This document shows positions 15,949 through 29,156 of a stretch of 64,000 nucleotides of DNA, piece after piece. The stretch covers positions 1-64,000 of the forward strand of contig JAOUJW010000010.1 in the NCBI GenBank assembly GCA_029882975.1. The letters are read 5' to 3'. Both the position numbers and the translations under genes were made by a program. Each line of letters opens with the position of its first letter. Position 1 is the first letter of the stretch. A model generated the notes under the pieces. That model ran no database searches. It had not been told where the DNA came from and saw nothing but the letters and a program-made list of their open reading frames with translations. The DNA comes from Gammaproteobacteria bacterium. GTDB taxonomy: Bacteria; Pseudomonadota; Gammaproteobacteria; SZUA-152.

Positions 15949-17679
15949 TTAGAGGTGGTTGTGAAACAATAAAATTAGAATGCCAATTGTCAAAGCCAGC
16001 GATACGCCTTGCCAAAAAGCCACTGGATTGCGTTCCATTAATGGCGCTTGGGCCTGCTTAATAAAATCCCGGTTAGGATGACGCAGGTCAAAAACAAATT
16101 CCGACAGTTCATCATATCGCTTGTATGGATCCAGGTGCGTCGCCTTACGCAGGGTGGCATCTATCCAAGCGGGAATTTCCCGGTCTTCGGATAGTACGGA
16201 TTGGTAGCGAAGTTTTCGTTGTGTGGCTTTAGTGCGAGATTTGGCGACTTCCGTACCATACGGCAGTCTGCCACTGAGCATTTGATAACATATGACGGCC
16301 AATGAAAACTGATCCGAACGCGTGCTGCCGCCTTCACCTAAGAAATACTCCGGTGCAGTGTATTGAGCGACCCCGAGAATCTCATGACGTTGTAACGGTG
16401 TGTTGATTTCCATCACACCGGCCACACGAGTTGAACCGAAATCTATGATTTTTACGGTCCCGTTACGATCAATCATGATGTTATTGGGTCTAAGGTCCTG
16501 GTGTAACATTTCCAGTCGATGGAAAGCCTGTATACCTTTGGCAGCTTGTTCCACAATATCTCTCACGGTTTCCACATCCGGTTTGGGATTGTCTATCATC
16601 CATTGAGCCAGGGTCTGGCCTTCTATGTATTCGGTGGCGATGTACAGGTAATTACGTTTTCGAGAAGGGTCGCATGACTTGAGTACATGGACACTGTTGA
16701 TGCGTCGGGCTACCCATTCTTCCATTAAAAACCGCTCCAAATAGTTGGTGTCAGACCGTTGTTCTACTGAGGGGGTTTTTATTATCAATGGTTCCTTACT
16801 TTGATTGTCTTCTGCTAAAAAAACGTGGCTGCGACTGCTGATGTATATCTCACGTAAGATAGTGTAACCGTCGAATTCCAACCTGGGTGCCAGTTCAGGT
16901 GGGAAGGGGCGTTGAGTGAGTTGCTGGTAAACTTCGTCTGCATTATGACAGGGTAATTGGTCCACGCGCACGATTTGCAGAGACAGATTGTCTTCACTCC
17001 CTTGCTCCAGTGCATGCTCTACAATCAACCGGGCGGCCAGGTCCAGGTGTTGGCTGTGGTCGCGGACAAGCTGAACAATATGGCTGTTATCCCAGTATTC
17101 GTGCACACCATCTGTGCTTAACAAAAAGACATCCCCTTCTTGCAGTGGTAGGGATCGATAGTCGATTTCCAATTGCGGATTCACCCCCAGGGCCCGGTTG
17201 AGATAACTGGTGTGGTGATCTATCCACAACCTATGATCTTCGGTGAGTTGTTCCAGTGAGTTGTTATGTAATTGATAAATCCGGGTGTCACCGGCATGGA
17301 ATATATAGGCGGTAGTGGACTTTAGAATCAACGCACTGAAAGTACACACGTAGCCCTTGTCTTTTTCATAACGAAACCGGCTCTGTCGTGTTTGCGCATA
17401 CAACCAGGAGTTAGTCGCATAGAGTACTTTCTGCGCAGAGGTTTTTACAGACCAGGCATCGGATGTACAGTAATAGTCATGCAAGAAACCCTTTACGGCC
17501 GATTCACTGGCAAACTGGCTGACTTCACTGCTGCTGATACCGTCCGCCAAAGCGATGGCAATGCCTTTACTGGGTAAGGCCGAACCTTCGGGTATGACAA
17601 CACCATGGAAGTCTTGATTGATTTGTTTTCGGCCCTTATTGGAGTATTGACCGATGGATACACTGAGTTGTTTAGTCAT
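15949..17679 (-). CDS. Bifunctional PP2C phosphatase / Ser-Thr protein kinase
   Basis: This protein of about 576 residues starts with a PP2C phosphatase domain carrying the metal-site pieces NQDFHG, LADGISSSE, LSTDGVHEY and EDNLSL. A kinase domain follows from about residue 255: invariant Lys in LIIKTP, helix-C Glu in EEWVARR, catalytic loop HQDLRPNN (Arg of HRD replaced by Gln) and metal motif IIDFGST. The glycine-rich loop is degenerate (EIYISSRSHVF). One C-terminal membrane helix ends the protein. The kinase is probably active and opposed by its own phosphatase. Between the channel and cyanase it may control transport. I use the ATG at 17679; a longer frame starts at 17730. Confidence 0.9.
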   Translation of the reverse strand: MTKQLSVSIGQYSNKGRKQINQDFHGVVIPEGSALPSKGIAIALADGISSSEVSQFASESAVKGFLHDYYCTSDAWSVKTSAQKVLYATNSWLYAQTRQSRFRYEKDKGYVCTFSALILKSTTAYIFHAGDTRIYQLHNNSLEQLTEDHRLWIDHHTSYLNRALGVNPQLEIDYRSLPLQEGDVFLLSTDGVHEYWDNSHIVQLVRDHSQHLDLAARLIVEHALEQGSEDNLSLQIVRVDQLPCHNADEVYQQLTQRPFPPELAPRLEFDGYTILREIYISSRSHVFLAEDNQSKEPLIIKTPSVEQRSDTNYLERFLMEEWVARRINSVHVLKSCDPSRKRNYLYIATEYIEGQTLAQWMIDNPKPDVETVRDIVEQAAKGIQAFHRLEMLHQDLRPNNIMIDRNGTVKIIDFGSTRVAGVMEINTPLQRHEILGVAQYTAPEYFLGEGGSTRSDQFSLAVICYQMLSGRLPYGTEVAKSRTKATQRKLRYQSVLSEDREIPAWIDATLRKATHLDPYKRYDELSEFVFDLRHPNRDFIKQAQAPLMERNPVAFWQGVSLALTIGILILLFHNHL

Positions 17680-17740
17680 GCGCAAGCCACAACCCTTACC
17701 CCCGGTGTATTCACCGGAGGCATGAGCCATTATCCTTGGT

Positions 17741-20936: not shown

Positions 20937-22151
20937 ATGCCGGAAGACAAAATATTGCAAAGAAAACTGTATTCCGGCTCCTCGTTTCAGAGGGCACTGA
21001 GCATTGCCGAGTTACGCAATATCGCCTTGCGCTGCGTACCTCGTTTTGCCATTGAGTATGTCGAAGGCGGCGCCGAAGATGAACAAGCATTGCAACACAA
21101 TGTCGAGGCTTTAGCGGCTTATCGGTTTATACCCAATACCCTGGTGGATACCAGTCAACGCCATCAACGAATTTCTTTACTGGGTAAGTCTTGTAATGCA
21201 CCTTTAGTTATTGCGCCTACAGGCTTAAATGGAATGTTGCGTTATCGCGGGGACGTGGATCTGGCTCGAGCCGCAGCCAGAGTAGGTATTCCCTTTACTT
21301 TAAGCACTGTATCCAATGTGAGTTTGGAGAATGTAGCAAAAGAGGCCGCCGGGCGATTGTGGATGCAACTGTACGTGATGAAGGACAGAGCCGTTGCACG
21401 AAATATTGTTGAACGTGCAGATAAAGCGGGATATGAGGCCTTGGTGTTTACCAGCGATGCCAATGTGTTTGGATATCGTGAGTGGGATCGACGTAACTAC
21501 CGTTATCCGGGAAAACTCAAATGGCAGAACATGCTGGATGTGGCACGGCATCCGCGCTGGGTTTTAAACGTATTGCGACATGGTATTCCTTGGTTTGACA
21601 ATATCGTGGAATACATGCCACCGGAAGCCCGAAGCGCATCCGGAGGAGTGGCTTTTTTTCCTAAATTGTTTGCGCCGGATATTTCCTGGGAGGATGTGAA
21701 ATGGATACGGGATTTATGGCCGCGCAAATTACTGATCAAGGGTGTGTTAAGTGCGGAAGATGCCCGACGGGCTGCAGAGGCTGGGTGTGACGGTATCATA
21801 TTAACTAACCACGGTGGGCGTCAGTTGGACTCCTGCGTGGCGCCGATAGATGTATTACCTCAAATAGCTAACGCCGTGGCTGATCGCATGACGGTGATCG
21901 TTGACAGCGGCTTTCGTCGTGGCGCAGACGTAGTGAAAGCTCTCGCTATGGGTGCCAATGCAGTAATGATAGGTCGAGCCACTCTCTATGGTTTAGCGGC
22001 AGGGGGTGAAGCCGGTGTGGATCATGCTTTACAGATTATTATGAATGAAATTGACCGGACCTTGGGGCAACTGGGTTGCAGCAGTTTTGAAGATCTTCAT
22101 CAGGGTATGTTGCAACACGATCAAAATGTCGGTTTGAGATATGAATATTAG
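20937..22151 (+). CDS. FMN-dependent alpha-hydroxyacid dehydrogenase (LldD/glycolate oxidase type)
   Basis: This 404-residue protein shows the family layout: an N-terminal segment with EYVEGGAEDEQAL, the FMN-binding APTGLNGML and STVSN segments, the catalytic-His signature TNHGGRQLD, and the phosphate-binding DSGFRRGADVVKALAMGA and MIGRATLYG. It oxidises a 2-hydroxyacid such as L-lactate, mandelate or glycolate, passing electrons to quinone or oxygen. The extra internal region (about residues 170-245) may be a membrane-contact loop like that of LldD or mandelate dehydrogenase. The operon with the MDR enzyme suggests catabolism of a hydroxyacid or aldehyde. Confidence 0.9.
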   Translation: MPEDKILQRKLYSGSSFQRALSIAELRNIALRCVPRFAIEYVEGGAEDEQALQHNVEALAAYRFIPNTLVDTSQRHQRISLLGKSCNAPLVIAPTGLNGMLRYRGDVDLARAAARVGIPFTLSTVSNVSLENVAKEAAGRLWMQLYVMKDRAVARNIVERADKAGYEALVFTSDANVFGYREWDRRNYRYPGKLKWQNMLDVARHPRWVLNVLRHGIPWFDNIVEYMPPEARSASGGVAFFPKLFAPDISWEDVKWIRDLWPRKLLIKGVLSAEDARRAAEAGCDGIILTNHGGRQLDSCVAPIDVLPQIANAVADRMTVIVDSGFRRGADVVKALAMGANAVMIGRATLYGLAAGGEAGVDHALQIIMNEIDRTLGQLGCSSFEDLHQGMLQHDQNVGLRYEY

Positions 22152-22453
22152 AATATGTAATATGAGATCTCTTTCCAGTTTTTGTGTGATAGCGTTAATG
22201 TTTTTTTGCATTGATTCCCTGTGAAAATCATTATGTCTGCGATTTGGTTAAGAATTGAAAATCGGGGACGCTAATGCTTGTACGCTGAAAAACCTCTGAA
22301 GTTTAGGAATAGAACGGCGCTGTGATTTCAGGTGGTCAGGGTTCAAGATCGCTTCCTACGCGCACCTTTCTTAGATCCTCCCCATGAGCCACAGGGCTGC
22401 AGGGCTTCGAGGAAGTTTTTCATTTTTAAGACCAGACGCGGGAAATAAAGACA
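22152..22453. other. 302-bp intergenic region
   Basis: I see no gene, terminator with T run or known RNA here; there is a short inverted pair CTTCCT and AGGAAG near its 3' half. It presumably contains the promoter of the next operon. Confidence 0.4.
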
Positions 22454-23875
22454 ATGCAAAGTTTATACATTATACCGAGTATGCCTGCTTTATCGATAGC
22501 TATTTGGGTTGCCCTAAGCATGGTATTTCTGTTTTTTGCCAGAGAGCCGGTGCATAAAATGTTTCAAGCTTTGTCGGATGGGACGGCCGGTGGATTTCGC
22601 CGTTTCGCTGAGTGGACTAAACGGGCTGCTGAGAAAATGCGGGAAAAAGATCGTAAGGTCTTGTTGGAATCCGGTGTGGCCAATATCCAGAACAAAATAT
22701 TGCAGGAATTCGCTAAAATTGAATCCACCAATACAAAAACCTTAGCCGATTATCCCAAGCTGCAATTGAAGCTTGACGAAGAAATTACCAAAATCGAAAA
22801 AGACTATAAAGATTGTGGTCAGTCTTCACCGCAGGCACCCGGATGGGGTGATGTGATTGAAACCATTTCACGAGCACAATCTTCGGCCGGTGATCGCATT
22901 ATTGAGAAAATGCTTGGCGAGATTCACAAGTCCGCAGTTGCCAGTGAGAAGAAAGCACTGGCGGAGTATCGTGATATTGCCGGTAAACGCCACAAAATCT
23001 TGAGCACTATGGCGCCGGTTTGGAAACGCATGGAAAAAATCGGCAAGGACATCAGTACAAAAATTGAGCAGGTTATTGAGACCAATAGCCGCATTGATAA
23101 GTACATGAACGAGTACAGTAAATTAAACAAGGGAGATCCTGATTCTGTTGATATGCTGTCTTCTCGGGTAACGAAACTGTTTATCGTATCTCTCATTGTT
23201 ATCGGTGCCGGTATCGCGGGTGCATTTATCAATTTTAATCTCATTGCCTTACCCATGTCAGAACTGGTTCCTCAGGGAACTCGTGTGGCGGGTATGGCGG
23301 TTTCCGAAATTTCCGCATTGGTTGTCGTTGTTTTGGAGTTGGTTCTGGGTATTTTCCTTATGGAAGCCATTGGTGTTACCAATACCTTTCCACAAATCGG
23401 CGCGATGACCAGCGGCAAAAAGAAGATTATTTTTTGGGGTACCTTGGTGGGTTTGTTTTTTCTGTCATCCGTTGAAGCATCTTTAGCTGTGTTGCGTGAG
23501 CATTTGGCTGAATCCAATATGTTACTGGAGCAAGCATTAGCCGGTGTTAAAGCTAAGCCCAGTATGGGTGCGGAATCCGGTGGCTTGAGCATTACCGTTG
23601 TCGGCCAGGCTACTTTAGGTTTTGTTCTTCCATGGATATTAGCCATGATCGCTATTCCTTTGGAAATGTTTATCGAGGCCAGTCAGCATGCTTTTGCTCG
23701 TATGTATACCATGCTTGTTGTTATGTTGGGACATCTTGCAAACGCGTTAGCACACTTATTTGAAGGTTTGTTCAAGGTAAGCGTGCATGTTTTTGATGTG
23801 TATACCATTGTCCCTGCAAAGGTTGCAGAAATGGTGAAAGGTAAAAACGGATCAGCAGTGAGTCGCACAGCATGA
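22454..23875 (+). CDS. Coiled-coil membrane protein, operon partner of a vWA-like lipoprotein
   Basis: This 473-residue protein is not recognised. It has one N-terminal membrane segment (about 10-28), a long charged helical region (about 40-230) likely to be coiled coil, then hydrophobic segments at about 238-260, 278-305, 325-345 and 385-410, and a hydrophobic C-terminus. The soluble region is Lys/Glu-rich. The last four bases (ATGA) overlap the start of a lipoprotein gene, so both are made together. The layout suggests an inner-membrane scaffold or channel-like component. It does not match ABC, MotA/ExbB or known secretion proteins by eye. Confidence 0.7.
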   Translation: MQSLYIIPSMPALSIAIWVALSMVFLFFAREPVHKMFQALSDGTAGGFRRFAEWTKRAAEKMREKDRKVLLESGVANIQNKILQEFAKIESTNTKTLADYPKLQLKLDEEITKIEKDYKDCGQSSPQAPGWGDVIETISRAQSSAGDRIIEKMLGEIHKSAVASEKKALAEYRDIAGKRHKILSTMAPVWKRMEKIGKDISTKIEQVIETNSRIDKYMNEYSKLNKGDPDSVDMLSSRVTKLFIVSLIVIGAGIAGAFINFNLIALPMSELVPQGTRVAGMAVSEISALVVVVLELVLGIFLMEAIGVTNTFPQIGAMTSGKKKIIFWGTLVGLFFLSSVEASLAVLREHLAESNMLLEQALAGVKAKPSMGAESGGLSITVVGQATLGFVLPWILAMIAIPLEMFIEASQHAFARMYTMLVVMLGHLANALAHLFEGLFKVSVHVFDVYTIVPAKVAEMVKGKNGSAVSRTA

Positions 23876-24540
23876 AAAAGATTACTGTTTCTTTGATGAT
23901 GGCCGGTTCGTTATTGATTACCGGTTGTTCCGACAACAAGGCTTACGAGACTTCCATCTGTGCTTTGGCTGATATATCCGGGACTTATGCCAAAGAGAAG
24001 AAAAGCATGGTCAAGATCATTAAGGCCGGGTTACTTCCTAAAATGGTGCCTGGAGATGGGATTTTCCTGGTGGCAATTGATAGTAATAGCTATACACAGA
24101 AAAATCTGGTTACCAAAATGACGTTGGACTATCGTCCGACAGAGGTGCAAAAACAAAAACTGGCTTTTTCAGAAAAATTGGAAAAATTTGCCAAAGACAC
24201 CATGCGATCAAAGCATACGGATATCAGTGGTGCCATGATGTTGTGCTCCGACTATTTGAAGGATACCAAATCCGGAACTCAACTCATTTTCATTTTCAGT
24301 GATATGAAAGAAGAATTGCCCAGTGGCGTGCGCCGAAAGTTCAAAGACAATGAGTTTTCCGGTATTCATATTGCGGCAATGAACGTGATTAAGCTAAATA
24401 AAGATAGTGCCGATCCGGAACGTTATCGCAGTCGCATGGAAAAATGGAAGAAAAAATTAGACGATGCGGGTGCAAAAAGTTGGAGCAATATTATCGATGC
24501 AAACAAATTGTCAGATTATATAGATTCGATAAAATCTTAA
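23872..24540 (+). CDS. Lipoprotein with von Willebrand A-like fold
   Basis: This 222-residue protein has a lipoprotein signal (LLITGC, lipid on Cys19). The body has an alternating alpha/beta pattern with a MIDAS-like set: ADISGTY (DxSxT rather than DxSxS), HTDISGAM as the possible Thr loop, and LIFIFSDMKEE as the third Asp loop. Such domains bind metal and a protein ligand. Hence it is probably an envelope-anchored binding protein working with the membrane protein whose gene it overlaps by ATGA. No homologue of known function is recalled. The fold call is by pattern and should be tested by structure prediction. Confidence 0.7.
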   Translation: MKKITVSLMMAGSLLITGCSDNKAYETSICALADISGTYAKEKKSMVKIIKAGLLPKMVPGDGIFLVAIDSNSYTQKNLVTKMTLDYRPTEVQKQKLAFSEKLEKFAKDTMRSKHTDISGAMMLCSDYLKDTKSGTQLIFIFSDMKEELPSGVRRKFKDNEFSGIHIAAMNVIKLNKDSADPERYRSRMEKWKKKLDDAGAKSWSNIIDANKLSDYIDSIKS

Positions 24541-24560
24541 TTCAACGCGTTCTTTAATGC

Positions 24561-24588
24561 AAAACGCCCGATTCCCCGGGCGTTTTGG
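24561..24588 (+). terminator. Rho-independent terminator after the vWA-like lipoprotein
   Basis: A 10-bp stem (24561-24570 with 24577-24586) with loop ATTCCC has an A-rich 5' side and T-rich 3' side. It closes the two-gene operon. Confidence 0.85.
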
Positions 24589-24708
24589 CTTGTTAAGCAA
24601 TTCCACTCACAAATTGTTTCATTTTATACACACTAATTTACCTTTCCCCGGTTTTAGTCTATATACAATCCAATAACTCCAACATTGGATTGTCTTGTGA
24701 ATGCATTG

Positions 24709-27132
24709 ATGCAATCAGCCAATCGGTTTTCTGTTCTGTATCTGATTATCCCGGCGAGTCTGGCTGTTTTGGGAAATGTCCTGAACTTGCCGTTGTTTTA
24801 TGGCGTGGATTTTATCTTCGGTTCCATTGCAGTGATGTTGAGTATTGCCCTGTTCGGAACCGGTCATGCCACCGTGGCGGCATTGGCAGGTGGAATGTAC
24901 ACCTTGTTTCTGTGGGGACACCCATATGCCATGATCATTTTTACCGCAGAGGCCCTGTGTGTTGGCTGGTTTTATCAGCGGGGCCATAGAAATCTGGTGT
25001 TGGTAGATGTGGCCTATTGGTTATTGTTGGGAGTTCCTTTGGTGTTGGTGTGTTATGGCCAGGTTTTGGCGATGAGTTGGGAATCGACGCTGCTGATTGC
25101 CCTGAAACAGTCCTTAAATGGCGTTTTTAATGCGATCATTGCAGGTCTGATTTTTCTATCTCTACAACTTTCAGACAAAGGGCGTCAGTGGAAGTTACCA
25201 CCGGCCACATTATCTGTACTATTGTTTCAAGTTTTACTAATGACCGTATTGGCAGCAGGTTTTTCTCCCATATTATACGAGAGTTATCAACAGCGGATAG
25301 TGCAGGAGCGATTTTTGGCGGACAAACTCTATTGGCAGGCAAACACCATAGCGGCTAATTTAGAGGATCAATCCCCTAATCTTACCGAAGCTGATCGTTT
25401 ACGGATAAGTATTCCCAAGCACGACTCAAGCCTGGCGGTGGGTTTGCTTGGACCCGACGATGCTGTGTTGGCGAGCCAAGGTGCTTTGTTTAGTCTTGGG
25501 CGGGAACAAGGTGATGTAGAAATATTGGAAAACGGTTTGAGTATTTGGTTGCCGGGCGGTGAAATGCCCGAGATGCAGCGGTGGAAGCAGGGGCGATACA
25601 CTATTCGTGTTGCGGTTAATACCGAACAACGCTTGGTTTTGGAACACTCAGCTGTACCCCTGGTACGAAAGTTAGAGCAAGGGCGATTAAGTCTATTTTC
25701 CTTACTCGCGGTGTTGACCTTTGCAGGCACAGCATTGGCTCGAGCTTTGAGCCGTTGGCTTAGTCAGCCGCTGAGCAAATTGGCCGCTGCCGGTCACTAC
25801 ATGTCGGATAAAATCTTTGCCGGAGAAAAACCCAACATTCCCGCAGGTAAAATTTACGAACATGTACACCTAAGCAACACATTGACGGATATGGCCTCAA
25901 AGTTGAGTCAAAGTTTTACCCAGCTGCAAACTATGAATAGCGATTTGGAGGAGGAGGTCAAACACCGTACCCGGGAGCTGCGTGAAAGCCAGGAGCGTTG
26001 GCGTTTTGCCCTCGAAGGTACGGGTGATGGTGTCTGGGATTGGGATATTGTCAACGATCAGGTGTTTTATTCCACTCAGTGGAAGCGCATGTTAGGTTAT
26101 GCCAAGAATGGCATAGGTAATGATATGCAGCAATGGCAATCGCGCTTGCACCCGGAGGACAAATCCACTGCTCTGGAAGCATTTGAGAAGCATTTATGCG
26201 GTGAAACAGATTATTACGAAAGTGAACACCGACTTCGTTGTAAAAATGGTGATTATTTATGGGTCCTGAGTCGTGGTAAGGTGATTTTACGAAACATTGA
26301 CGGTACACCGCAGCGTGTCATAGGCACGCTGAGCAATATTTCCGAGCGCAAAAACAACGAAGAGAGATTGTTGATCGCGATAAACGACGCAGAAAAAGCC
26401 AATATGGCGAAATCGGATTTTCTATCTAATATGAGTCATGAGTTACGTACCCCGCTAAATTCGATTATTGGATTTACCGGAATTATTCGCTCCGGCATGG
26501 CCGGTCCCACTAACGAAATCCAGAACAAGCAACTGAAAATGGTGGATGACAGTGCCCGCCATCTTTTGGAACTCATCAACAATATACTGGATCTATCTAA
26601 AATTGAGGCGGGTAAGAGTCAGGTAGAATGGTCTCGATTCAACGTCTGGGAGTTGTTAGATGACACCATGGAGCAGGTAAAAGTTTTGTATGTGGAAAAG
26701 GGTTTGGATTTACAAACTGAATCGCGGCAGGAAATTATTGAAATCCGCAGCGATAGGCAAAAACTATATCAAATTTTATTGAATCTGTTGAGCAATGCAT
26801 TGAAGTTTACTGAGCAGGGTGGAGTGAGTGTTTCCTGTAAAACTCGAAATAAGGACCTGGTCATCGAAGTGAAGGATACCGGTATTGGAATACCTGAGAA
26901 ACATCTCTCGTTGATATTTGACGCTTTCCAGCAAGGAGATAGCGGCGATAGTCGCATGCACGAGGGTACGGGGCTTGGGTTGGCGATTTCGCAAAAATTT
27001 ACTCAAATGCTTAATGGCCATATTTCAATAACCAGCCGGGTAGGTGAAGGCAGTTGTTTCACTGTATTATTGAAAGACTGCCTGCAAACACCCGTTTATG
27101 GTGATGGCTCGGTTATGGAGCCGGCTCTGTAG
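24709..27132 (+). CDS. Membrane PAS sensor histidine kinase
   Basis: This protein of about 807 residues has an N-terminal block of membrane helices (about 10-160), an extracytoplasmic region between helices at about 175-195 and 325-345, a HAMP-like linker with coiled coil, a PAS domain (LEGTGDGVWDWDIVND to GTLSNISERK), a dimerisation domain with the phospho-accepting His in [14 protein letters not shown], and an ATPase domain with NLLSNALKFT, DTGIGIP and GTGLGLAI. No receiver domain and no response regulator are adjacent, so the output partner is elsewhere. GTG (24697) and TTG (24685) starts are also possible; none has a good ribosome-binding site. It converges on the peroxidase gene 27 bases away. 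Confidence 0.88.
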   Translation: MQSANRFSVLYLIIPASLAVLGNVLNLPLFYGVDFIFGSIAVMLSIALFGTGHATVAALAGGMYTLFLWGHPYAMIIFTAEALCVGWFYQRGHRNLVLVDVAYWLLLGVPLVLVCYGQVLAMSWESTLLIALKQSLNGVFNAIIAGLIFLSLQLSDKGRQWKLPPATLSVLLFQVLLMTVLAAGFSPILYESYQQRIVQERFLADKLYWQANTIAANLEDQSPNLTEADRLRISIPKHDSSLAVGLLGPDDAVLASQGALFSLGREQGDVEILENGLSIWLPGGEMPEMQRWKQGRYTIRVAVNTEQRLVLEHSAVPLVRKLEQGRLSLFSLLAVLTFAGTALARALSRWLSQPLSKLAAAGHYMSDKIFAGEKPNIPAGKIYEHVHLSNTLTDMASKLSQSFTQLQTMNSDLEEEVKHRTRELRESQERWRFALEGTGDGVWDWDIVNDQVFYSTQWKRMLGYAKNGIGNDMQQWQSRLHPEDKSTALEAFEKHLCGETDYYESEHRLRCKNGDYLWVLSRGKVILRNIDGTPQRVIGTLSNISERKNNEERLLIAINDAEKANMAKSDFLSNMSHELRTPLNSIIGFTGIIRSGMAGPTNEIQNKQLKMVDDSARHLLELINNILDLSKIEAGKSQVEWSRFNVWELLDDTMEQVKVLYVEKGLDLQTESRQEIIEIRSDRQKLYQILLNLLSNALKFTEQGGVSVSCKTRNKDLVIEVKDTGIGIPEKHLSLIFDAFQQGDSGDSRMHEGTGLGLAISQKFTQMLNGHISITSRVGEGSCFTVLLKDCLQTPVYGDGSVMEPAL

Positions 27133-27159: not shown

Positions 27160-28674
27160 TCAGCGTCTTACGAACAGCGTGTCCGGGATGTGCTGCAAGC
27201 CGGTATTTCGGCGGATGACATCCGCCAAGCGGGTGTTTTGAACTATCCACAGCAGCTCCGGTTTTTCCGAAAATATGGGGTCGACCTGGTGCCAAAAACG
27301 GTCACCGTCCCGAAGTCGCTGAAACTGGTCTACAAGAACTTTATGGGTAAATTCACCAACATTGGCACCATCAATGTGATCTTCCACTAATGAGCCAATC
27401 CATGGGTCAACCGAATCGATGGTTCCATAGAGCTTTTCCAGCTGGTTGGATAACCAGGTATTAGAGCTTAAGGACTGAAAGTCCTCATGGGGCGTCAGTC
27501 CCATTATCTTGCGACAACTGTTAAAGTCCGGCAAACCAAAATCTCTACCTCTTTGTATATTTAAGGCGGCGAGGTCGATGAGTTTTTCGTCACCCATTCC
27601 CGTGAGCATATAATTTCTGGCATCGTCAACCAACTGACCGTCTACTTCACGCATCGTTTGCTGATAGAGGCCGGATAATATGGGTTCTATGCCATTTTCA
27701 ACCAGTATTTGCGAATTGTAATATAACTTTCCCAAGGCGATGGTGTGGCCGTTGTTTCCCAATGGAATCATGCTGGAGAACATGCTATGGGCCACTCGAA
27801 AACAAGCGGAGGTAAAAAAGTTACTTATCGTGGGGATCGTTTCGGCGCAATAACCCTGGTAGTCCGGCAGAGCATCCCTGCCAAGCAGGATAGGTAAAAA
27901 TTCCTCATAACTTATCCGCTGCATCATGCCAACGACCATTGCCCGGGACAGCTGATAAAGTTGTTCGTCTTGTCCGCGTATGCCCGGGTAGAGGATATGC
28001 AGTTCGTCACATAGGCGGTTATGTTCCAAAACAAATAGGGTGTGTAAACTGCTAAGTATGGCATTTTGATTGGCGCGATGGTCGCCGGTAATAAAACGAG
28101 ATGCTTGCTTGCGGCTTCTCTCTAAAGGCAACAACATGCCATGTTTGTGGCTGGATGTGAGTAGTTTTCCATTCCCTTCATGGCATCGTAGGTAGCGGGC
28201 ATGGGTGTCGTTCGATCCGTAAATGTTGGAACCATCAATAAAAGACGAAACCAGATTGAGTTGTTCTCTGGGATTTTCAGGACTGCTGCCCGTATTTTGG
28301 TCAAAACCGGAGCGTACAAATTCTATCAGGCCGCCATGTGGAAATTTTGGGTCTCCGCGCAATACCGGAATATTCCAATGTTCTGAATTCGAGATTCCGG
28401 TGCATTCGATTTCATGGTGTAGAAATTGTCCCCAGGCCCAAATATAGTCGGTCAGACCGTTGGCATTGAATTTAATATAGTTTTCTCTGCAAACTCGATT
28501 ACTGATCAAACGCGGGTTGGGGTTTGTTTCACCGCGCACGGCCGGTTGTGCTATGCGGTCTGCATAATCAGCATATCCCAGACGAAAAAATTGCGAATAG
28601 CTGCTACCCAACCACCGGTTCTCAAGGTTGTTCAGGGTTCCGTCGTAGGTTCGATAATCAGTTTTGTGCATCAT
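27160..28674 (-). CDS. Animal-type haem peroxidase (peroxidase-cyclooxygenase superfamily)
   Basis: This protein of about 504 residues carries the distal-His segment WAWGQFLHHEI, the region FITGDHRANQN, SLHTLFVLEHNRLCDEL, the proximal-His segment SACFRVAHSMFSS, and LNIQRGRDFGLPDFN, all hallmarks of the animal haem peroxidase family (myeloperoxidase, peroxinectin and bacterial relatives). It probably oxidises halides or phenols with hydrogen peroxide. No signal peptide is visible, so its cell location is unclear. The start at 28674 follows GAGGAG closely; the next ATG (28671) is as good, and a longer frame begins at 28716 without a ribosome-binding site. The gene stands alone. Confidence 0.9.
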   Translation of the reverse strand: MMHKTDYRTYDGTLNNLENRWLGSSYSQFFRLGYADYADRIAQPAVRGETNPNPRLISNRVCRENYIKFNANGLTDYIWAWGQFLHHEIECTGISNSEHWNIPVLRGDPKFPHGGLIEFVRSGFDQNTGSSPENPREQLNLVSSFIDGSNIYGSNDTHARYLRCHEGNGKLLTSSHKHGMLLPLERSRKQASRFITGDHRANQNAILSSLHTLFVLEHNRLCDELHILYPGIRGQDEQLYQLSRAMVVGMMQRISYEEFLPILLGRDALPDYQGYCAETIPTISNFFTSACFRVAHSMFSSMIPLGNNGHTIALGKLYYNSQILVENGIEPILSGLYQQTMREVDGQLVDDARNYMLTGMGDEKLIDLAALNIQRGRDFGLPDFNSCRKIMGLTPHEDFQSLSSNTWLSNQLEKLYGTIDSVDPWIGSLVEDHIDGANVGEFTHKVLVDQFQRLRDGDRFWHQVDPIFSEKPELLWIVQNTRLADVIRRNTGLQHIPDTLFVRR

Positions 28675-29156
28675 GTTCTCCTCATCTGGTGGAGGAGTCT
28701 GAAGCGCCGTAGACATGAAGCAAAAAGTCAGTTCCTGGCGTAATGCACATTATGAGCGGCGTACAATAAGCACGAATCATACTTGGGGCTCTTCCGGAGC
28801 CGGTTCAGACAGTCCGGGTGGATATTACCGTGAAGTCAGTTTGTGTCAGAACACACTTGCCGAATTTGCAAGTCCCACTAAAATCGGTACAGTAGTCAAG
28901 ATCTTTAATATAATTTACATTTGTGGATGCAAAAATTATTTATAGGCCTCCAGTGTCGGAAAACAAGGCTACCGAATAAGAAGAGGTGCATGGTTGAGTC
29001 GGATATTGGGTTTGGCGCCGACGATGGAGTGATGCCGGCTCAGATACCCCGCATCGCAGCCCTGCTTTAGGGTTTGATTAGGGTTTGATTAGGGTTTGAT
29101 TCAATGGAGCCGCTGCGGTACAGTGTGCACAAGAGTTAATCGCGTTGGAGAAATTT
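28675..29156. other. Divergent intergenic region of about 480 bp
   Basis: It contains an inverted pair ACTTGC/GCAAGT (28855-28873), TAATG/CATTA (28741-28752), a hairpin GGCTC/GAGCC near 28785, and three tandem copies of an 11-bp unit at 29069-29101. No supported gene: a 76-codon frame over 28715-28945 has unconvincing composition and no ribosome-binding site. Confidence 0.45.
29069..29101 (+). repeat. Three perfect 11-bp tandem repeats
   Basis: AGGGTTTGATT occurs three times without interruption, starting at 29069, 29080 and 29091. The array lies 56 bases before the start of the small secreted protein gene, in its promoter or leader. Confidence 0.9.

Follow-up and report, generated by a model that had tools for sequence, protein, structure and literature searches.

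What does a gene pair do that links a polytopic membrane protein to a small lipoprotein, and do the two products act together? The question is raised by the gammaproteobacterial DNA analysed here, a stretch of 64,000 nucleotides (the window). Within it, gene A (22454..23875, + strand) encodes a 473-residue protein, predicted to lie in the inner membrane with five transmembrane (TM) helices and a helical hairpin on the cytoplasmic side, and gene B (23872..24540, + strand) encodes a 222-residue lipoprotein predicted to have a vWA fold. We propose that A and B may form one inner-membrane complex in which the MIDAS site of B docks on the periplasmic half of A and controls an acidic site, with the hairpin serving a separate partner; we put the probability of this reading at about 45%.

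A co-conserved gene pair

The stop of A and the start of B share the four bases ATGA (23872..23875, + strand), and the overlap reported by the first-pass annotation is thereby confirmed, with both genes on the + strand. The same 4-base overlap is found in 37 of 77 relatives if the first possible starts are taken, and a pattern search detected no terminator close to the pair. In the window the pair is preceded by the gene of an FMN-dependent dehydrogenase and followed by that of a PAS histidine kinase; just past this downstream kinase is a gene for an animal-type haem peroxidase (27160-28716). Elsewhere in the window (15949-17730), PP2C phosphatase and Ser/Thr kinase domains occur in one protein, beside a formate/nitrite transporter.

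The first-pass annotation had named co-conservation as a check on its reading, and the pair is co-conserved. Among 24 genomes of the window's family, A occurs in 17 and B in 16, with the pairs adjacent; the extra holder of A (G001) has a fragment with a stop. A search of named genomes turned up 518 relatives of A. The best 80 were kept, and in 77 of these B comes next after A; in the three misses the contig ends 1 to 175 bases past A. In a class sample of 369 genomes, 51 have A, 47 have B and 46 have both, out of 52 with either gene. The sole genome of this sample with B and no A is G169, and its B is a remnant (L199:9285-10052): towards the C-terminus two thirds of the protein can be recognised, and the segment with DxSxT is gone, with other, repeat-like sequence in its stead. 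In a phylum sample of 398 genomes there are 22 holders, and a single family (f207) accounts for 16; its member G437 groups in a tree with named loci from Zetaproteobacteria. The named relatives, many of which are metagenome bins, have record titles that include Gamma-, Alpha-, Zeta- and Deltaproteobacteria and Campylobacterales. The order A-B was also seen in 13 of 13 cases in 12 regions, which is no independent count because the regions were picked for having both genes. A fusion of B was suggested by the great length of open frames in G331 and G375. We rejected it for G331, where the frame is a GC-rich overlap and B follows A normally. In G392 and G398 (loci L217 and L219) A is broken over several frames, with no B found beside it in the former and an intact B in the latter; these are signs of decay, and other members of the family keep the pair.

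The window's genome also holds a canonical A/B pair (G000:C20), and the window pair is a divergent second copy that is common to two genomes of other families. It is 30-38% identical to the canonical pairs of its own family, versus 80% (A) and 72% (B) to the pair in G123 and 67% (A) and 63% (B) to that in G381. When positions 21001-27000 of the window are compared with G123, DNA similarity extends from 22451 to 24416, effectively within the two genes. Since the canonical A of the window's genome is 45% identical to that of G123, as against 80% for the window's A, and similarity is confined to the pair, the window-type pair looks as if it was transferred as a unit. Synonymous change between the window and G123 is saturated in both genes (pS 0.85 and 0.88) and protein change is low (pN 0.13 and 0.20), so both genes are maintained by purifying selection.

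Gene A: a membrane protein with a probable cytoplasmic hairpin

Averaged over the family, the hydrophobic stretches of A are centred at about residues 12-25, 243-259, 284-300, 331-342 and 388-401, and these we count as five TM helices. Weaker stretches at 419-424 and 448 were left out of the count; the C-terminal side of A changes if the 419-424 stretch is a TM helix. The orientation of TM1 (about residues 7-29; 22472..22540, + strand), with the N-terminus out, is predicted from its hydrophobic stretch and the charge bias of 99 A proteins. Mean net charge in these 99 is +5.5 after TM1, +3.5 between TM3 and TM4 and +4.1 at the C-terminus, versus -0.9, -0.3 and -2.5 on the opposite side. The bias fits a topology in which the N-terminus is out, the hairpin and the C-terminus are in, and the periplasmic loops lie at about 264-285 and 343-382.

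In the structural model of A (pLDDT 81.3, pTM 0.60), one helix runs from TM1 on to residue 122 and, after a turn region, a second helix runs back to TM2; the long helices cover residues 30-122 and 148-226. Beyond this hairpin come further TM helices and then a long C-terminal helix. Net positive charge beside the membrane places the hairpin in the cytoplasm by prediction, and from charge and model together, the coiled coil is probably an antiparallel helical hairpin (residues 30-226; 22541..23131, + strand) with arms of about 80-90 residues. The first-pass description of a multi-helix membrane protein with a coiled coil therefore stands, with five or more membrane helices predicted and a helical hairpin of some length, and we correct it in one respect: the coiled coil is most likely cytoplasmic. 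At the hairpin tip (residues 122-147; 22817..22894, + strand) most relatives have EVPPxPPGWxKAV...D, and P126 and W131 are invariant in 71 A proteins. Other positions that matter below, all on the + strand, are N260 and E270 at the end of TM2 and in the first periplasmic loop (23231..23263), the membrane glutamate E295 in TM3 (23336..23338) and the glutamate E341 at the periplasmic end of TM4 (23474..23476).

Searches place A in no family. NCBIfam and PHROG give no match and the matches in Pfam and PADLOC are weak; at E 0.01, 71 A proteins match eight Pfam families, all weakly, the commonest being DUF7341 (8 members, best E 4.5e-5). No PDB chain is similar to the A model at E 0.001 or better, and the best hit of an A profile against PDB sequences has E 0.82. 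Rows returned for A by VIA mostly cover the hairpin (residues 34-234) and are generic for long helices, so the membrane part of A was barely probed by the fold search.

Gene B: a lipoprotein with a predicted vWA fold

By its signal peptide and lipobox cysteine, B is predicted to be lipidated as a bacterial lipoprotein. The cysteine, C19 (23926..23928, + strand), is followed by Ser at +2 and stands 15 residues ahead of the first MIDAS aspartate. The MIDAS elements, again on the + strand, are DxSxT (D34-T38, DISGT; 23971..23985), T116 with D117 (24217..24222) and D144 (24301..24303) in SDMKEE (143-148). When the window's B is aligned with 67 others from the nearer named loci, 68 B proteins in all, C19, D34, S36, T38, T116 and D144 show no variation; the MIDAS residues vary in some distant relatives. 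The lipoprotein with MIDAS-like loops that had been noted at first pass is thus borne out, with lipobox C19, DISGT, TD and SDMKEE and a complete MIDAS motif, and the DxSxT...T...D site is a putative metal-binding site. In one clade of B (L196, L203, L208, L220 and L221), D or E replaces the MIDAS threonine (DISxD/EY), and the metal site there may differ.

The vWA fold, whose presence had likewise been named as a check, is found in the predicted model by AlphaFold, Foldseek and VIA. The AlphaFold model is well defined (pLDDT 88.8, pTM 0.84). Its first row in Foldseek is alpha2-delta-1 (E 1.5e-5), and NorD, CMG2 and integrin I domains are also found. VIA aligns the model to the vWA domain of CMG2 with Z 15.7 and rmsd 2.7 over 161 residues, and most of the 50 rows listed have Z of about 15 over 160-170 residues at 2.6-3.1 A. 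Pfam also points to a vWA (Rossmann-like) fold for the modelled protein: VWA_2 matches 46 of 68 B proteins at E 0.01 and the window's B weakly (E 0.007, below the cut-off with 17.4 of 27 bits). When a B profile was run against PDB sequences, the inter-alpha-inhibitor heavy chain, which bears a vWA domain, came up at E 0.055.

The membrane to which B is anchored bears on the mechanism. In E. coli, a serine at +2 predicts sorting of a lipoprotein to the outer membrane. The strict lipobox pattern is present in 62 of 77 relatives of B, and 41 of those 62, like the window's B, have Ser at +2, which by the E. coli rule argues for the outer membrane. B might then bind peptidoglycan, the surface or another protein, with A co-transcribed and not directly bound; among bacterial proteins with a MIDAS, Bd0875 has been described as an adhesin. 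We consider this arrangement rather unlikely. From the last cysteine to the MIDAS aspartate there are 15-20 residues in all 77 relatives, so B should act near its anchor, with little reach across the periplasm, and loss of B goes with loss of residues in the membrane and periplasmic half of A.

Loss of B and the residues of A

The proposed complex, with B docked on A, is suggested by A proteins that have no B. We compared 99 rows of A with B (the window, 77 named loci, 19 from L196-L218, plus L220-L221) with 17 rows without B from four genome families (f72, f106, f151 and f167), the groups having been assigned by hand. The 77 named rows lean to the canonical form, since they are drawn from the best 80 of 518, and in three rows counted as having B (L127, L128 and L169) B is cut by the contig end. 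B was sought throughout the genome for 8 of the 17 B-less rows and only beside A for the other 9; none was found in seven of the eight, and the B of the eighth (G807) belongs to its other, canonical A. In row L232 the final third lies in a different frame, and that part of the row is gapped or incorrect. Five hyper-divergent A rows with no B beside them (L233-L237), L216 and three rows whose B lacks DxSxT (L190, L195 and L197) were kept apart, and broken or partial A genes were left out (L217 and L219; partial matches in G001, G002, G011 and G543).

E295 is present in 99/99 rows with B, 1/17 without B and 0/3 with MIDAS-degenerate B, where residue 295 is T, Q or A. For E341 the counts are 99/99, 0/17 (one gapped) and 1/3. 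N260 falls from 99/99 to 2/17, and V272 (1/17), G256 (0/17) and Q385 (3/17, two gapped) are also lost in B-less rows. E270 (96/99 with B) was a candidate for a single MIDAS ligand, which we rejected: it is alanine in L201 and L202 despite B, and it is kept in 7/17 rows without B and in 3/3 with MIDAS-degenerate B. In the five D/E-type rows of the B clade described above, E295 and E341 are unchanged.

The loss appears heavier in the periplasmic half of A. B-less A proteins keep 0.45 of the conserved columns in the periplasmic half (25 columns) versus 0.70 in the cytoplasmic half (30 columns), with a Mann-Whitney p of 0.004 at a conservation cut of 0.93; p is 0.02 at a looser cut, 0.12 and not significant at the strictest (0.97), and 0.0001 with six representative rows. 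The boundaries of the halves come from hydrophobicity peaks but were set after the pattern of loss had been seen, and with them E295 falls just on the cytoplasmic side. Some columns on that side are lost without B as well (S238 2/17, I401 3/17, F243 4/17, E404 6/17). The coupling of B with the membrane and periplasmic residues of A is suggestive.

Its phylogenetic depth is limited. In a tree built from 68 rows out of 125, the state of B and its MIDAS needs three changes, and E295 and E341 need two each. The association thus comes down to some three independent events, with a single deep split behind most of it, and a test on independent pairs (n=3), in which E295 and E341 go with B in about two (p 0.5), cannot reach significance with so few.

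Two other accounts of the coupling have to be weighed. In the first, B is an assembly or stability factor: its vWA domain would chaperone A, and the membrane glutamates would be merely buried residues that need B. vWA proteins such as NorD serve the assembly of complexes, and NorD is a fold match of B; B-less A proteins have indeed lost the membrane glutamates. We hold this to be unlikely, as no AAA+ partner occurs among the neighbour families listed (25 of 107 and 25 of 75) and glutamates kept in 99 of 99 proteins suggest more than a role in folding.

The second account, to which we give a similarly low probability, is that A consists of two old subfamilies, of which the B-less one has drifted, so that A and B need not touch. 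The tree lends itself to this view: on one side of its main split (support 89, not starred) all 24 rows are B-less or MIDAS-degenerate, and on the other 42 of 44 rows bear B, the exceptions being L192 (B-less) and L216 (uncertain), so the number of events stays at about three. Against drift, the loss is uneven, R30, R179, L183, G299, R323 and W131 being kept in 17/17 B-less rows, and E304 in 16/17, next to the near-complete loss of E295 and E341. The separate loss of B in L192 was also accompanied by loss of E341, although E295 is kept, and L216, in whose genome no B was found, has Q at 295 and keeps E341. A different branch shows the reverse pattern: W131 is present in 92/99 A proteins with B, and the differing seven (L198 and L210-L215) have lost the hairpin tip, bear B and keep 0.79 of the conserved columns in the periplasmic half, 0.63 in other parts and 0.33 in the hairpin.

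A proposed mechanism

We return to one inner-membrane complex as the preferred reading, building on what the computations show: the two genes are paired, B has a predicted vWA fold and a complete MIDAS motif, charge bias gives a topology for A, and the presence of B correlates with membrane and periplasmic residues of A. A short lipid tether would keep B on the periplasmic surface of the inner membrane, where its association with A could retain it despite the +2 serine. Its vWA domain, with metal bound at the MIDAS, would make direct contact with the periplasmic half of A, and docking would control a conserved acidic site in the membrane formed by E295 and E341 with N260 and Q385. The state of this site would be passed to, or driven by, the cytoplasmic hairpin, whose conserved tip would bind a separate cytoplasmic partner.

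A bolder form of this mechanism, which we regard as doubtful, sees in the pair a novel type of envelope device with B as a detachable outer gate: the buried glutamate pair of A would carry ions or protons, and the movement would be relayed along a hairpin of 12-14 nm to an intracellular partner. That branches without the gate have lost the glutamates, and that a branch without the tip has kept the gate, would make the system modular, with two separable faces.

Gene neighbourhood

Genes near some A/B loci raise the further idea of an accessory role in flagellar motility or chemotaxis, with the pair acting, for instance, like a receptor or in association with the motor. Among the best 80 of 518 loci, 19 have a sigma factor gene of one protein cluster upstream, 17 of them directly so, and those tested are FliA (5/5 above the NCBIfam cut-off). 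The 136 upstream neighbours include CheB (11) and FliK-type proteins (4), and CheD and CheR, the latter below its cut-off, were confirmed in L124. Flagellin is found in 39 of 51 genomes with A versus 161 of 318 without (Fisher p 7e-4, kinship ignored). Set against these associations, 12 of the 51 holders of A have no flagellin, the fliA arrangement needs seven changes on a quick tree of A, and the 10 neighbours scanned in the window include no flagellar or chemotaxis protein. Promoters of the sigma-28 type ahead of A are a weak candidate that we set aside: in 53 upstream stretches with 4 mismatches allowed, 2 sigma-28-like sites were found versus 0.6 expected from mononucleotide shuffles, no clear excess. 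We consider a flagellar function improbable and take these neighbours as a weak lead that assigns no role to the pair.

Downstream, DUF1249 and SPOR proteins account for 19 and 17 of 119 neighbours. The order fliA - A - B - DUF1249 - SPOR recurs in 19 loci between L117 and L170 (e.g. L129 and L130); here the gene of a flagellar sigma factor and further genes flank the pair. At another locus (L204:9850-11982), a divergently oriented gene for polyphosphate kinase 1 (NCBIfam) adjoins A, next to a gene that by its look is a putative exopolyphosphatase; L038, L040 and L048 have genes of similar size and place.

The first-pass annotation had suggested an envelope machine, with phage defence among its possible tasks; an envelope complex is plausible. 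That the pair is a phage-defence system is highly improbable, for although it is a stand-alone two-gene unit that has seemingly moved between families, PADLOC matches A weakly and over the coiled coil (PDC-S04 E 0.0042, LmuB E 0.018) and B not at all, defence models upstream amount to 10 families in 136 proteins with none in more than three, those downstream to 42 families in 119 proteins (the 25 listed, including AbiEii and PD-T4-6, match one protein each), and no confirmed relative was found in viral contigs or plasmids, nor, for A, in phages.

Relation to known systems

The first-pass statement that no known system is recognised holds in the libraries searched (Pfam, NCBIfam, PHROG and PADLOC), and several systems resemble the proposed complex in part. 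In Zorya, ZorA and ZorB combine a membrane protein that has a long helical cytoplasmic part with an envelope partner, and A and B are alike in this; the MotA/ExbB domain of ZorA is absent from 71 A proteins (Pfam, E 0.01), as is the OmpA-like peptidoglycan-binding domain of ZorB from 68 B proteins, which match six Pfam families at E 0.01. Methyl-accepting chemotaxis receptors extend an antiparallel helical hairpin into the cytoplasm, and its tip is conserved. A shares this predicted architecture, and chemotaxis genes adjoin some A/B loci, but the receptor signalling domain (MCPsignal) has no match in 71 A proteins. By these tests of sequence, A/B belongs neither to Zorya nor to these receptors. 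MoxR AAA+/vWA systems (BB0172/BB0173, RavA-ViaA and NorQ-NorD) resemble B in having a vWA domain that is sometimes membrane-linked; a MoxR ATPase is not among the neighbour families listed (25 of 107 and 25 of 75).

The closest functional analogy may be alpha2-delta, a vWA/MIDAS protein that interacts with a loop of voltage-gated calcium channels (PMC7351808, PMC6231325). In both cases a membrane-anchored extracellular vWA/MIDAS protein would meet a loop of a polytopic membrane protein. The differences are that the whole of B, 222 residues with a bacterial lipobox, makes up one vWA domain, that the Cache domain of alpha2-delta and Cachd1 has no match in 68 B proteins, and that A, unlike the calcium channel, has no channel family match. 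A/B may act in the manner of alpha2-delta and its calcium channel, although the tests made place it outside that family. A search of the literature by titles and the starts of abstracts, covering few subscription journals, found no paper on the A/B pair, which is apparently undescribed.

Significance

Both genes are present in 46 of the 369 class-sample genomes, about one in eight, and A has no Pfam or NCBIfam family. The branches with and without B single out E295, E341, N260 and Q385 in A and D34, S36, T116 and D144 in B, so that the mechanism could be tested with a handful of mutants. If the proposed complex is real, it would provide a bacterial example of a vWA subunit that depends on metal and controls a membrane protein.
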